Virus record (IMG/VR): IMGVR_UViG_3300010297_000095
Location: 1 to 22,658 of that record
Reading direction: 5' to 3' (one strand)
Length of the DNA: 22,658 bases
Origin: a virus
Each line of letters starts with the position of its first letter. The first letter of the stretch is position 1. This document shows, one piece after another, positions 1-17,477 of the stretch. Both the position numbers and the translations under genes were made by a program. A model generated the notes under the pieces. It was not told the DNA's origin and searched no databases. It saw nothing but the letters and a program-made list of their open reading frames with translations.

Positions 1-348
1 AATAGTAATCTGCACTCTAAGTTTACGTACATTAGTGTATAAAGCAGTCTCATTCTCTAACGTAGTTCTGATAGTACTTGCATTGATAGGATCACCAGTA
101 ATACTACTACCAGAAATACTTATTGATGGCCCTGATGTTGTACCACCAAATAATGCAACTCCAATAGAGTTAGCAGCACTATTAGATCCTGCACTAAATG
201 CACTATAGGTTGTACCGTTAACATCTGTGTAAGAAGGGCCTGGTATATTACTGCCCCATACTATACCTGAATTAGCAGTTGCTGTAACATAATCAGCAAA
301 ACGATCTATCAGATTTTGTTCTTCAATAGGATTATTTAATGTTGCCAT
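1..348 (-). CDS. Start of a virion structural-like protein, 3' end beyond the window
   Basis: The reading frame opens at an ATG at 348-346 and stays open for 116 codons to the window edge, so only the N-terminal part is visible. The protein begins MATLNNPIEEQNLIDRFADY and continues as a Ser/Thr/Gly/Asn-rich stretch (for example FGGTTSGPSISISGS). That composition matches the neighbouring fibre and baseplate proteins, and there is no Cys in the visible part. Its first 17 bases overlap the last codons of the radical-SAM gene, so its translation is probably coupled to that gene. I do not recognise a named family. The late-operon position and composition suggest a tail or fibre-associated virion protein, which is inference. 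The start is supported by the overlap geometry and the lack of space for any other start. Confidence 0.72.
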   Translation of the reverse strand, partial: MATLNNPIEEQNLIDRFADYVTATANSGIVWGSNIPGPSYTDVNGTTYSAFSAGSNSAANSIGVALFGGTTSGPSISISGSSITGDPINASTIRTTLENETALYTNVRKLRVQITI

Positions 349-1366
349 TTATCTCTTCATCCAATCTTTTCATCAGCATTCTAGGAGCACCACAAATATC
401 ATCTTCCCAGAGTAATTGATGACAATCTCCTCCACAATATTTATATACCGAGCAACTATAACATCTCGGATCTCTATTTAGTTCTTGCATAATAACTTCA
501 CAACGCTTTGGAGATTCTATAACTTCTTTTGCATTAATACTTATATGACTAAAATAGTCTCTTGGTGCAGCATTTGGACATCCTGCTATCGATCCATCTG
601 CATTAATAGTAAATAACTTCTGCTCACAATCTCTACAGAATGTACCGCCTTTAGTAAATCCTGTTTCAAACTTACTATAAACTGTTTCCATAAACTCATT
701 ATCAAACCATTCCCGTGCATTATGTTCTTTCATTACTTCATGCATCTCTAAAAAGAAATGCTGAAGTTCTAAATTAGAAGGTGCTACGTTATTATAACGC
801 GCATGGCCATCATGAGTAATTCGTTCTAATGCTAATTCTTGTACCCCAAGACTTTTAACGTATTGTAATAGTGTTAAAGGTCCCATCTTCATAACATCTT
901 GTGTTAATGATACAAAGAGTTTTACTGTATAGCCTCTATCTAATAAAAGTGCAACATTATTTTGAAAAAGAATTCTTTGCTTTTCATTATCAAATCGTAT
1001 AGCTGGATCCCAAGACGTACCTAAGCGCTTTTTAAGTACAATATCCATAAATTCTAACTTTTCATCAGTTAGTTTATGAACTAGATTACTTGTACATCCA
1101 TAAGTAGCATCTGGCCATTTATCTTTAGTTAGCTCCCAGAACTTCCACATATCAGATACAGGGGCTAAAAATGGTTCACCTCCATGATATTCAAAATGCG
1201 CGGTACTTTCTGGTCTATAATCTTTTACTTGATTAACCCAGTACGCTACTTTCTCTGGATTAAAATAAATTTTACGTCCTTCTTTACCTGATGTATAGCA
1301 ATGAGAACAATTAAGATTGCAAGTCTCAGTCGTCTTAATATAGAACATCAAATCGTTCTTTAGCAT
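332..1366 (-). CDS. Radical SAM enzyme with C-terminal SPASM domain (predicted protein/peptide modifier)
   Basis: This 344-residue protein has the two hallmarks of a SPASM-type radical-SAM enzyme. The N-terminal cluster motif CxxxCxxC is at C16, C20 and C23, followed by a GGEP motif at 62-65 that normally contacts SAM. The C-terminal part carries C247-x10-G258-x4-C263, then C302-x2-C305-x5-C311-x3-C315 and a last Cys at C325. This fits the SPASM consensus for two auxiliary [4Fe-4S] clusters; C244 and C289 are extra. Known family members, such as anaerobic sulfatase maturases and RiPP maturases, modify side chains in proteins or peptides in the cytoplasm. The length is typical and no motif is broken, so the enzyme looks intact. 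Its ATG shares one base with the stop of the JmjC-like gene (TAATG), and its end overlaps the next gene by 17 bases. The substrate is unknown; a virion or host protein is inferred. Confidence 0.9.
   Translation of the reverse strand: MLKNDLMFYIKTTETCNLNCSHCYTSGKEGRKIYFNPEKVAYWVNQVKDYRPESTAHFEYHGGEPFLAPVSDMWKFWELTKDKWPDATYGCTSNLVHKLTDEKLEFMDIVLKKRLGTSWDPAIRFDNEKQRILFQNNVALLLDRGYTVKLFVSLTQDVMKMGPLTLLQYVKSLGVQELALERITHDGHARYNNVAPSNLELQHFFLEMHEVMKEHNAREWFDNEFMETVYSKFETGFTKGGTFCRDCEQKLFTINADGSIAGCPNAAPRDYFSHISINAKEVIESPKRCEVIMQELNRDPRCYSCSVYKYCGGDCHQLLWEDDICGAPRMLMKRLDEEINGNIK
437..444 (-). promoter_or_regulatory. Possible T4-type late promoter -10 box (TATAAATA)
   Basis: An exact TATAAATA octamer lies on the minus strand inside the end of the radical-SAM gene, about 90 bases upstream of the next gene's start at 348. 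T4-like late promoters consist of this single element. By base composition an AT-rich window of this length should contain a couple of copies by chance, so the position is the only support. Confidence 0.2.
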
Positions 1367-1782
1367 TAATCACCTATAGACAGCATAACTGAATCATAAT
1401 TATTAGTCGCTGCATGCTCTACATTTGCTGGTATAGTTATAGTCTCATTCGCATTAACTACTATATCTTTACCATCTATTATAAACGTTTTCTTTCCGAA
1501 CATTACATGTATTATAACATTATATGGGTCGCAGTGCAAGCCAAAACTTGCAGCATTTTGAGGTGCAATGTATAGATGAACAGTTTTTGGTTTGTATTGT
1601 GTAAAAACTGACTCTAAACCTTCTACTTTAACTGTCTTCTTATTTTCAGCCAGGTAAAAAGCGATTTGAGTCTTATCTATCTCAAATTCACGTCCATTAT
1701 TATCTATAATAAAAGCAAAAGACCCCGCTTCACATAATTGCAGTAAAGCAGGGTCTTGCAAAGATTCTATTTTGTCAATCAC
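1366..1782 (-). CDS. Small JmjC/cupin-fold protein with HxD...H metal site (putative 2-oxoglutarate oxygenase)
   Basis: This 138-residue protein carries the core pattern of cupin-8/JmjC (ROX-like) oxygenases. VHLYIAP at 68-74 is followed by SFGLHCDPYNV at 79-89, then FGKKTF at 95-100 and PANVEHA at 118-124. H83, D85 and H123 would bind Fe(II), and K97 or K98 sits where 2-oxoglutarate is usually anchored. Known relatives hydroxylate ribosomal or other proteins. This version is shorter than the usual core of about 200 residues or more and has H92 where many relatives have Gln, so activity is not certain; a plain metal-binding cupin is the alternative. It starts with GTG, one base after the fibre stop codon, without a clear Shine-Dalgarno, which implies reinitiation. 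It is one-base coupled to the radical-SAM gene, suggesting shared function. The enzyme class is moderately sure; the substrate is unknown. Confidence 0.78.
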   Translation of the reverse strand: MIDKIESLQDPALLQLCEAGSFAFIIDNNGREFEIDKTQIAFYLAENKKTVKVEGLESVFTQYKPKTVHLYIAPQNAASFGLHCDPYNVIIHVMFGKKTFIIDGKDIVVNANETITIPANVEHAATNNYDSVMLSIGD

Positions 1783-1783
1783 T

Positions 1784-4411
1784 TTACACTTTAAGCAAGC
1801 ACTCTACAAGCTTTTCTTCTTCATTACTATTTGATTCTAATGCAATACCTACCATAGGTCCGGTACTATGTTTACTCGCTGTACCATTTTCAGCAGGATA
1901 TACAGCCTCACCTTTCATAATAGCACCAACGACTCTTACTGGGACTCGGCCTTTCAGTGCAAGAGCTTGACCCTCTGCAGCTGCATTCATAAGATATGCA
2001 GGCTCTAATGATACTACACCTACTGGAATACCATCTGAGTTACACGCTTCTGTCTCACTTGCATCGCTAGATCCAATCATCATAACTGTACCTTCTGCAT
2101 GCTCAATGTCTGTTGTATATTTCTCAGCCAAGTCAGCGTAGTTAGCTGAAGTTGCTCTACCGTTAAAAGTACCTGTTGTTAATGTATTAGTAGAAGGGTT
2201 ATATGATAACCCTGCATCCATATTCAAACGTTTGTATGCTGCTGTACCATCATCTACAAATGTTAAATATCTGGTTGCATTTGAACTATCATCACGCTCG
2301 ACGTAAGGCTCTACTGTAATATTACTTGTACCGTTAAACGATACACCGTTAATCGTTCTCGTAGTTTGCAGTTGAGTAGCAGTAGCAGCATTACCGGAAG
2401 TATTTTGCGTACCTGAAGTATTTACTCCTGGTAAGTTAATACTAGCAGATCCGTTAAAAGATACACCACCAATAGTTCTAGCTGTTTGTAATACTGTTGC
2501 ACTACCTGCATTTCCTGTAACGTTGCCAGTAACATTACCTGTTAGATTACCACTAAATGTTCCATATACAGTACCACCAAAGTATCCATTATTAAATCTC
2601 TTTGCAGAGGTACCTAGGTTATATGAGTTATTAGATGACGGGTAGATATCATTACCACCTGGCTCGAGAACAATATCACCATCTGTTTTAATTTGCAAAT
2701 CGTTCGTATTATGTATACGAATCTGATGCTCAATATTACCTGAGCTATCTTGCCAATGAATACCTGCATTCGCTGTTGCAGTACCTGAATCATTATCTTT
2801 TAGAACAACCTGTGGTACTGATGTTAAGATAGTTGCACCAGGCGCTGTAATAGAAGCTCCAAATGTACCAATATTTGCTGGGTTAGCAGTACCGTTAGTC
2901 TCTGTTAAAACTAGTGTATTATTAGCAGAGCTAAAGGAGAACGAGCTAATTGGGTTAACACTGGTTGTACTAGCAGAAGTAACGCGACCCTTGTTGTCCA
3001 CTGTGACAACAGGGACAACTGTAGTATTTCCATAGGTTCCAGCAGTTACACCAGATGTTGCCAATCTAGCTACGGCTAAAGTTCCTGAACTAATATTTGT
3101 AGCATTAGTATAATATGAACTATCATTACCATCAAGTACATCTGCATCTAAACCTGATCCAGATCCATCATTACCAGCATGCCAGACTGTAAAGCTATTT
3201 GTACTATTTGTAGATGCTTTAAGATTAGTAGTATTACTAGATCTAAGAGTAATAGTACTTGCTGCAGTACTTAATGTGAAATCAGTCGGTGCGCTAATCG
3301 TAGCAGTATTAACAGTTGCAATACTTGCTGTGTTAGCATATACTTGCCATCGTTTACCTAATTGACCTAATTGCAGGTTACCGTTAGATGATGGGATAAT
3401 ATTAGAACCGTATAATGCGTTAATAGTAACTGTGTCACTTGTATTTGAACCAAATACTAAATTGCCATTAACAGTAAGATCTTCTGTAGCAAGTGATGTA
3501 GCGACATCAACATTAGTTGCATAGACGTAATTCCATCTATTTACTGTATTACCTAATGTTCTGCTACCAGTTGGAATAACGTTAGAGTTAACAGTAGCAA
3601 CAATTTGCAGAACATCCGTATCTGCATTACCGATTTGTGTATTACCTGTAATAGTTGCTGTATTAGATACTGTTAGATCGACTATTTGTGAATTAGATGT
3701 ACTAACCGATATACCTGCAGCGAACGAGGTATTACCATTTACAGTTAAATCACCACCTATAGTAGTATTACCAGAAAGAGTTGATAAGCCGCCAATCGAA
3801 AGGTTACCGTTTGCTGTTAAACCACCATTCTGAGAAACTGTAAAAGTATTTTGAGTTGAGTTAGCAACAACTAATGTTGCTTCATTTACTACCACGTTAC
3901 CATATGCATCAATACTGTTTAGGTTTGCTAATCCTGTTGTAGTTACAGTATTAGTAGATACATCTATAAAGTTACCATTCGAAGCGTAAATATTAACAAA
4001 CTGGTTTGCAGCTGTGCCTACACTATAAGTTACATTCGTGCTAGGACGAATATTCTGTACAAAGACATCTTGTACAGAAGCATTATTCGACACATTTAGT
4101 TGACCGGTAATATTTACATTCGCACTTACATTTGCGGTACCAGTAATAGATGTATTTGTAGTGATTGAAAGTGTTCCATTGGTAGTAACATTACCACCAC
4201 GTAGTCCGGTTCCTACAGCAATAGTCGTAGCACCAAAAATACCATTAATTACTGTATTACCATTTGCACTTGCACCAGAGGCATTAGCACTGACTGTCAT
4301 TACAGTCGTAGCCATATCTTCAACCATCTGATTCGTACGTACTAACCAGGTAGCAAAGGTATCAGTTGTTGAGCTTACATTCGCGGTGCCATATTTACCT
4401 GGATTAGCCAT
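1784..4411 (-). CDS. Long repeat-built tail fibre protein
   Basis: This 875-residue protein is rich in Asn, Thr, Ser and Gly and is almost free of charge over its first 500 residues, as in trimeric beta-structured phage fibres. Visible repeats include four copies of a motif like IxPSxNxxxxLGTxxxRWxxxY (about 118-145, 274-300, 335-360, 588-612), a TGNVTGN run at 623-634, and two copies of an RTIxGVSFNG unit (645-654 and 685-694). ISSGTLAVARL (440-450) and VDNKGRVTSAS (471-481) are common in phage fibres. The last about 120 residues begin with SANYADLAEKY at 755-765 and form a denser, charged C-terminal domain, plausibly the trimerisation or tip domain. The start ATG overlaps the 71-residue gene by 8 bases and has AGGA seven bases upstream. 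Only two Cys are present (C790, C871). The receptor is unknown. Confidence 0.88.
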   Translation of the reverse strand: MANPGKYGTANVSSTTDTFATWLVRTNQMVEDMATTVMTVSANASGASANGNTVINGIFGATTIAVGTGLRGGNVTTNGTLSITTNTSITGTANVSANVNITGQLNVSNNASVQDVFVQNIRPSTNVTYSVGTAANQFVNIYASNGNFIDVSTNTVTTTGLANLNSIDAYGNVVVNEATLVVANSTQNTFTVSQNGGLTANGNLSIGGLSTLSGNTTIGGDLTVNGNTSFAAGISVSTSNSQIVDLTVSNTATITGNTQIGNADTDVLQIVATVNSNVIPTGSRTLGNTVNRWNYVYATNVDVATSLATEDLTVNGNLVFGSNTSDTVTINALYGSNIIPSSNGNLQLGQLGKRWQVYANTASIATVNTATISAPTDFTLSTAASTITLRSSNTTNLKASTNSTNSFTVWHAGNDGSGSGLDADVLDGNDSSYYTNATNISSGTLAVARLATSGVTAGTYGNTTVVPVVTVDNKGRVTSASTTSVNPISSFSFSSANNTLVLTETNGTANPANIGTFGASITAPGATILTSVPQVVLKDNDSGTATANAGIHWQDSSGNIEHQIRIHNTNDLQIKTDGDIVLEPGGNDIYPSSNNSYNLGTSAKRFNNGYFGGTVYGTFSGNLTGNVTGNVTGNAGSATVLQTARTIGGVSFNGSASINLPGVNTSGTQNTSGNAATATQLQTTRTINGVSFNGTSNITVEPYVERDDSSNATRYLTFVDDGTAAYKRLNMDAGLSYNPSTNTLTTGTFNGRATSANYADLAEKYTTDIEHAEGTVMMIGSSDASETEACNSDGIPVGVVSLEPAYLMNAAAEGQALALKGRVPVRVVGAIMKGEAVYPAENGTASKHSTGPMVGIALESNSNEEEKLVECLLKV
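2312..2491 (-). repeat. Tandem fibre repeat unit (two RTIxGVSFNG copies)
   Basis: Two protein repeats occur in the fibre, at residues 641-662 and 681-700. Each has the pattern LQTxRTIxGVSFNGxxxI. They are separated by about 18 residues, and the DNA copies have diverged. Such units are common in phage fibre shafts. Confidence 0.6.
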
Positions 4412-4619
4412 TCGTCGTTCCTACTAATTTTTGTAATAAGTACTTCACTTCTGCTATCTCGCTTCTAACATATTCTAGCTCTTCCTCGAAACAATCTAGA
4501 CGCGTTACTTTTTGTCTTTGTTGCTTATATGCAAGGAAAGCACTCTTGTTAGTATTTATTAGAGCACCCGAAGAGGTATCTCTAGCAAAATCAATAACTT
4601 CTGTTTGTACTTTAGCCAT
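4404..4619 (-). CDS. Small 71-residue coiled-coil-like protein between baseplate and fibre genes
   Basis: This short gene sits between the 2022-residue protein (3-base gap) and the fibre (8-base overlap, ATGGCTAA), so a real coupled gene is likely. The protein has a first half with TSSGALINTNKSAFLAYKQQR at about residues 15-35, then a charged amphipathic helix, LDCFEEELEYVRSEIAEVKYLLQKLV (about 41-66), with leucine/valine spacing compatible with a coiled coil. I recall similar small proteins at this place in marine T4-like phages, always uncharacterised. It could be a fibre-attachment or assembly factor because of where it sits, but that is inference. The start ATG is the only one that fits the junction. 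Confidence 0.78.
   Translation of the reverse strand: MAKVQTEVIDFARDTSSGALINTNKSAFLAYKQQRQKVTRLDCFEEELEYVRSEIAEVKYLLQKLVGTTNG
4419..4422 (-). promoter_or_regulatory. Ribosome binding site of the tail fibre
   Basis: An AGGA core lies seven bases before the fibre ATG and inside the end of the preceding small gene. It supports the fibre start at 4411 and independent initiation in addition to coupling. Confidence 0.55.
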
Positions 4620-17189: not shown

Positions 17190-17477
17190 TTAACCTGCGA
17201 ATACATTAGATGAACCGGCTGCAACACTAGTACAACCTGAGATAGCATCACCTACTCTACCTGCACCTTTACCATTTACAAATACAGTTGTTGAGCCAAC
17301 TGCAATAGGAGCCGAGTGTCCTGGACAAGGAGCAGGTGGTAGTAAATGACCAGTATTATTATCGCCTTGACGCGACCAGCCTATACCATTTACAAATACA
17401 GTCGTTGAACCAACAGCTCGAGTCATTCCGGAACAATGCGGTACATCGGCATCACCTATTCTAGTTGCTGCTGGCAT
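17190..17477 (-). CDS. PAAR-repeat spike tip protein (gp5.4-like)
   Basis: This 95-residue protein has PAAR character: RIGDADVPHCSG at the start, then two near-identical VGSTTVFVNG strands at about 23-32 and 61-70, each followed by a GD turn. The His and Cys residues (H14, C15, H44, C51, H54, C79) could bind the single metal ion that sharpens such tips. T4 gp5.4, of similar length (97), caps the gp5 spike. Here the gene lies two genes after gp5 and directly before gp25, consistent with assembly onto the spike. The ATG overlaps the previous gene by 17 bases, and a purine-rich GAGAGAGA stretch lies just upstream. The family is very sure. Confidence 0.93.
   Translation of the reverse strand: MPAATRIGDADVPHCSGMTRAVGSTTVFVNGIGWSRQGDNNTGHLLPPAPCPGHSAPIAVGSTTVFVNGKGAGRVGDAISGCTSVAAGSSNVFAG

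Follow-up and report, generated by a model that had tools for sequence, protein, structure and literature searches.

The window, i.e. the whole stretch of DNA analysed here, is a virus record of 22,658 bases and contains a T4-like myophage block of baseplate and fibre genes, nearly all on the minus strand. Two open reading frames noted in a preliminary description, one for a cupin/JmjC-like protein and one for a radical-SAM/SPASM protein (rSAM0), are real and intact on that strand (Table 1). The stop codon of the cupin gene and the start codon of rSAM0 overlap in TAATG, and a tail-fibre gene lies directly upstream, as had been described.

rSAM0 harbours the signature of radical-SAM/SPASM proteins, an N-terminal CxxxCxxC followed by Cx9-15Gx4C...Cx2Cx5Cx3C...C. 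Its three radical-SAM and eight SPASM-region cysteines are identical in 84/84 sequences. The cupin possesses the HxD...H facial triad on a cupin-type profile; H83 and D85 (HxD), the distal H123, and G96 and K98 (G-x-K) are invariant in 82/82 sequences. Profile searches with the cupin matched cupin dioxygenases (3e-10) and the histidyl hydroxylase MINA53 (4e-5), and K98 would be compatible with 2OG binding. The fixation of the cluster cysteines among the 84 homologues, and of the cupin residues among the 82, indicates that selection maintains both active sites. Judged by these intact and fixed residues, both enzymes still look functional, as first proposed.

Table 1. Coordinates of features in the window and in related records
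Feature	Record	Position	Strand	Remarks
Tail-bearing protein, N-terminal 116 aa (candidate substrate)	window	1-348	-	homologous to the family after rSAM0 in 65 loci
rSAM0, radical-SAM/SPASM protein, 344 aa	window	332-1366	-	Pfam Radical_SAM 6.8e-7; NCBIfam SPASM 29.6 bits, cut-off 27
rSAM0 cysteines	window			CxxxCxxC C16/C20/C23; SPASM region C244, C247, C263, C302, C305, C311, C315, C325
Cupin/JmjC-like protein, 138 aa, GTG start	window	1366-1782	-	Cupin_2 1.1e-8, JmjC_2 1.9e-5, both above gathering
Tail fibre protein, 875 aa	window	1784-4411	-	PHROG 6722, 4.7e-33; directly upstream of the cupin
Fibre C-terminal domain, residues 756-872	window	1796-2146	-	co-inherited with the cassette
71-aa virion protein	window	4404-4619		no relatives found in the relatives scan
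PAAR-motif protein	window	17190-17477		PHROG 281, 6.5e-23; probably spike tip of the baseplate
Block with cytidylyltransferase/mannose-isomerase fusion	L001	3652-7439		beside a related cassette
Split tail protein	L009	9007-10375		second frame carries the tail
Stretch between fibre and rSAM0	L067	7468-7956		no intact cupin frame called
c5	L072	9601-10248		PHROG 20767
Seven consecutive radical-SAM genes	L117	290-8878		adjoining the tail gene; 231-kb phage record
Chromosomal cassette, complete or scattered	L303	6654-19999		Bdellovibrionota-type genome, 20-kb stretch
Chromosomal cassette, complete or scattered	L304	5826-17704		Bdellovibrionota-type genome, 20-kb stretch
Chromosomal cassette, complete or scattered	L305	929-10482		Bdellovibrionota-type genome, 20-kb stretch

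The tail-bearing protein

The preliminary description had reported no small precursor gene nearby. This proved wrong, as the gene adjoining rSAM0, which is cut by the contig end, is a candidate precursor. Complete members of its family end in CHxSCHxxCHxSR(G/S)RR, hereafter the tail. Since the window ends ahead of its own tail, we infer the tail of this phage from its relatives.

Among the loci selected by rSAM0 only, all complete family members (64/64) have this ending. The set includes near-identical loci, and the 64 members comprise 51 distinct tail DNA sequences. The latter encode 25 distinct tails, with variable Cys, His and Arg codons, and the nine invariant tail positions are likewise encoded by varied synonymous codons, which places the constraint on the protein. 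The mean frequency of the major residue is 0.90 in the last 16 columns, i.e. the tail, versus 0.52 in the body. Half of the sequences in the 59-sequence alignment A1 were picked by the tail pattern, and only the rSAM-selected set is unbiased. The layout is that of a RiPP precursor gene beside its maturase with a conserved core, as the tail-bearing gene lies directly after rSAM0.

The tail was also found on bodies without mutual matches, in groups of 104, 39 and smaller numbers of proteins. Similarly, matches of PHROG 35144 to the tail proteins of the A type, of Atu_ph07 and of Bdellovibrionota are confined to the last 25-49 residues. The tail behaves as a portable tag and is the sole part conserved across families.

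The body, 120-360 aa long, forms a folded domain. AlphaFold2 predicted it with a mean pLDDT of 86, and the last ~17 residues with 53-59. Foldseek found no match of the body in the PDB, and its matches in BFVD include gp170 of Atu_ph07. Neither the tail protein of L072 nor the cassette protein c5 (see below) matched an NCBIfam model. In four loci (L009, L011, L012 and L014) the tail protein is split and the second frame carries the tail; the first frames lack it because a Gly_rich_2 domain (PF21722) ends them, which looks like the insertion of an adhesin-like domain. A [WY]GT[ND]xxPF motif, located close to the N-terminus encoded by the window's own tail-bearing gene, was considered as the modified site and dropped, being not invariant, unlike the tail.

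The longer cassette and its association with the fibre

The scan of IMG/VR with rSAM0 revealed 166 relatives, 80 of which were kept. Among 50,697 named phage records only seven encode rSAM0, namely Sinorhizobium phage Phosso, Agrobacterium phage Atu_ph07 (two records), Burkholderia phages FLC6, FLC8 and SURPRISE13, and Pseudomonas phage pPa_SNUABM_DT01. The named phages were reached via the enzyme searches rather than via tail searches; when they were searched by tblastn with the tail region and with one marine tail protein, there were no matches, probably owing to low-complexity masking and divergence.

Across 86 rSAM0 loci, a count that takes in the window and its copy, the cupin lies beside rSAM0 in 83, fibre proteins of one cluster lie upstream in 56, and one small-protein family lies downstream in 65. 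The fibre proteins of these loci vary widely in length. In the named jumbo phages, the cupin and rSAM0 are likewise retained next to virion genes. The neighbours are thus conserved rather than random and the key residues are fixed rather than lost, which favours a joint system of the two enzymes. This part of the preliminary description stands, as does its placing of the pair beside the fibre. In L067, rSAM0 and the tail are intact and no intact cupin frame was called between them and the fibre, pointing either to a damaged cupin gene or to a faulty assembly. The Bdellovibrionota-type loci that were read, mostly windows of only 5-8 kb, showed no cupin close to the tail gene. Either the cupin is not strictly required or these records are defective.

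The cupin and rSAM0 are the head of a longer multi-enzyme cassette, and the contig of the window stops just past the pair. The cassette contains three to six further radical-SAM enzymes, often including one of the B12 type, together with Fe/2OG oxygenases. In longer relatives the pair is followed by the tail protein, c5 (PHROG 20767), c9 (~370 aa), and often a B12-binding radical-SAM enzyme. Three more radical-SAM families, 2OG oxygenases of PF13759/PF13640, and PHROG 20737 are also found there. Pseudomonas phage pPa_SNUABM_DT01 possesses six radical-SAM genes, and the consecutive run of seven listed in Table 1 lies in L117.

The structure of c5 was predicted with a pLDDT of 96, and Foldseek detected no matching fold in the PDB; the model suggests a possible new fold and a candidate recognition factor. 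Searches of PDB sequences with c5, c9, the tail body, rSAM0 and the fibre C-terminal domain returned nothing useful. Beside a related cassette, L001 encodes, in addition to the fusion protein in Table 1, two DUF7936-type proteins, which suggests a separate, sugar-related virion chemistry.

Virus records fished by the tail DNA pattern alone encode rSAM0 in 90 of 99 cases (47/50 and 43/49). Three of the exceptions were inspected: L110 has other radical-SAM genes, and L091 and L126 are chance matches. Conversely, in the class with rSAM0 and no nearby tail gene, all seven records of at least 28 kb hold two tails elsewhere, and the shorter ones hold none.

Loci selected by their baseplate gene show the same association. 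Nine of them (L307, L309-L311, L313, L317, L318, L320 and L321) have the tail, the cassette and the fibre C-terminal domain, and seven with enough downstream sequence (L314, L316, L325 and L329-L332) have none of the three; the remaining loci end too early and stand outside this count. L314 and L316, both among the seven, count as close relatives at 72-73% in the baseplate protein, and their fibres end differently. The fibre C-terminal domain, which matched nothing in Pfam or the PDB, is also present in Atu_ph07 and Phosso. According to these loci, the tail, the cassette and the fibre C-terminal domain are co-gained and co-lost.

The virion cluster of Atu_ph07 and the cassettes of Bdellovibrionota

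Most of the Atu_ph07 virion proteins detected by ESI-MS/MS come from three gene clusters, one of which is CDS 170-215 (PMC6102473). In the record of this phage, gp170 is the tail-bearing protein, gp171 rSAM0, gp172 the cupin, and gp215 the major head protein. As gp215 is the major head protein both in the record and in PMC6102473, the two numberings agree, and gp170, with the tail ...FCHSSCHASCHNSRSRR, is the first gene of that virion cluster. From the cluster boundary, we infer that gp170 itself was detected in the virion.

Outside phages, the tail followed by a stop and flanked by enzymes was found on genome contigs of nine genomes that are not phage-like at that place, with one copy each. 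Seven or eight of the nine are titled as Bdellovibrionota families. Matches were kept only if a stop followed RxRR and enzymes adjoined; most matches of the tail pattern on genome contigs were chance Arg/His-rich frames. Among 291 genomes sampled from the phylum, eight were positive, none beyond the finds of the contig scan, so the system is a minority trait in the phylum. Contigs of archaeal, Rickettsiales, Bacteroidetes and Rhodobacteraceae MAGs (L206, L225, L244, L246, L265 and L292) have the fibre and cassette context of phages. They look like misbinned phage DNA and were excluded from the cellular counts.

The chromosomal cassettes of L303, L304 and L305 also encode a second small protein ending in (N/D)GRHWV(K/Q)VK. 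A Peptidase_S74 protein is located close to the cassette in two of these three 20-kb stretches (L303 and L304). In Bdellovibrio, the mosaic adhesive trimeric (MAT) fibres have S74 as their chaperone (PMC10769870). With S74 near the bacterial cassettes and a fibre beside the phage ones, both settings place the cassette beside trimeric-fibre machinery. The likeness to the MAT system thus lies in phage-like fibres with S74 chaperones in predators and in S74 proteins that adjoin Bdellovibrionota cassettes. In contrast, the text of PMC10769870 mentions neither radical SAM nor pilin, and the S74 protein of L304 has a prepilin-like N-terminus.

Proposed maturation of the tail and known systems

We consider it likely that the cassette matures the C-terminal CHxSCHxxCHxSRxRR tail of a virion protein in a RiPP-like manner, at the fibre tip. 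The sequences themselves show the tail, its strict coupling to the enzymes, its portability and the intact active sites, and gp170 of Atu_ph07 speaks indirectly for a place in the virion. Radical-SAM enzymes would carry out the maturation, with a putative chemistry and purpose. The SPASM radical-SAM enzyme would act on the Cys/His/Ser repeats of the tail, where it would introduce cross-links or modify C-H bonds in other ways. The cupin, whose residues are those of a JmjC-like Fe oxygenase, would hydroxylate a tail residue, for instance His or Arg, which is a reasonable guess given its matches to MINA53 and cupin dioxygenases. The additional enzymes of the cassette (radical-SAM, B12 radical-SAM and 2OG) may add modifications. 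Counting against this reading, Pfam and NCBIfam recognised no leader-binding RRE domain among the scanned proteins.

The preliminary description had named as targets a virion protein of the same operon, with the C-terminus of the fibre in mind, or a host protein. A virion protein of the operon is still the probable target, but its likelier site is the tail of the adjoining gene's product than the fibre C-terminus, and nothing supports the reprogramming of a host protein.

The layout, in which a conserved core-like C-terminus has SPASM maturases adjacent to it, would also suit a released RiPP, whose tail is the core cut off from the body as leader and acts in the infected cell or the medium as toxin, signal or metallophore. 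This is unlikely, as neither a peptidase nor a transporter for cutting a peptide from its leader and exporting it was detected by Pfam in the cassette proteins that were scanned, the body of 120-360 aa is folded, gp170 of Atu_ph07 is placed within a virion-protein cluster, and the system is coupled with the fibre C-terminal domain. With no peptidase or exporter in these proteins, the product most likely remains on the virion. The tail peptide would probably be unreleased and form an exposed C-terminus at the fibre tip, in contact with the host envelope, where it may bind a receptor or metal or provide a rigid, cross-linked tip.

An equally doubtful alternative is that the enzymes act on the fibre or on some other protein of the virion, and that the tail is an unmodified assembly or metal-binding motif (Zn, Fe or Cu, with three Cys and three His). 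The three CH pairs could plausibly serve as ligands, and the C-terminal domain of the fibre is co-inherited with the cassette. However, the tail is the most conserved and portable part, which better fits a constraint by enzyme recognition or by the product; the differences in fibre length are wide, and several radical-SAM enzymes would be superfluous for an unmodified metal site. Slightly less probable still, the cassette could make a cofactor or other small molecule for attachment to the cysteines of the tail, which would then serve as an anchor and not as the direct substrate of every enzyme; this would account for so many enzymes for one 16-residue tail and for two conserved families, c5 and c9, without assigned fold or function, but the profile relatives of the radical-SAM enzymes are mostly peptide maturases and no small-molecule pathway core was recognised among the scanned proteins. 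Chance open reading frames and a host metabolic gene island were considered and rejected, as was 7-deazaguanine DNA modification, since no profile match argues for a QueE-type role.

Maturation of a virion-displayed tail is the reading we prefer. There is about an even chance for its wider form, in which an unreleased fibre-tip peptide, rebuilt by several radical-SAM enzymes into a non-canonical structure, touches or breaches Gram-negative envelopes, in phages as well as in some bacteria of a predatory phylum. If true, natural-product chemistry builds part of the phage particle, and this would be the first virion component matured by radical-SAM enzymes. A chemically unusual contact peptide would then be shared by a common group of marine phages, by several jumbo phages that can be cultured, and by some Bdellovibrionota. 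CHxSCHxxCHxSRxRR at a C-terminus would be a precise sequence tag for finding such systems, and the orphan phage radical-SAM group PHROG 1802 would gain a likely substrate.

The cupin is comparable to the JmjC ribosomal oxygenases MINA53, NO66 and YcfD in its HxD...H triad, the G-x-K after it, and a JmjC_2 match above gathering. Unlike these, it has only 138 aa and matches generic cupins more strongly; its oxygenase role is putative.

In the HxsABCD system, a target containing repeated H-x-S is accompanied by two radical-SAM enzymes. This His-Xaa-Ser system is mentioned in PMC9062424. The cassette enzymes show weak similarity to HxsB (1.8e-7) and HxsC (2e-7), but at 30 bits against cut-offs of 370 (HxsB) and 268 (HxsC), and the repeats here are C-H-x-S followed by RxRR. 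Such scores below the cut-off rule out an identity as HxsABCD or as any NCBIfam equivalog.

Most of the NCBIfam models nearest to the cassette radical-SAM enzymes describe peptide maturases (PapB, DynA, YhhB, DarE and HxsB/C), with all equivalog models at about a tenth of their cut-off. The nearest peptide maturases make thioether, C-C, ether or His-linked bonds; with scores this far below cut-off, the profiles do not assign a bond type. Similar to the RiPP maturation systems of PapB, DynA, DarE and the 3-residue cyclophanes, a SPASM enzyme lies beside a short, conserved C-terminal Cys/His/Ser segment, and one downstream cassette enzyme resembles DynA over nearly its full length (1.2e-13). In contrast to these systems, no protease or exporter was found in the cassette, each cassette has several radical-SAM enzymes, and the 'precursor' is folded and probably borne on the virion. 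In the open literature searched, these phage genes appear as annotations only, and we found no description of phages that use natural-product chemistry to build their own particle. Radical-SAM peptide maturation is known as a kind, and its setting on a virion protein would be new.
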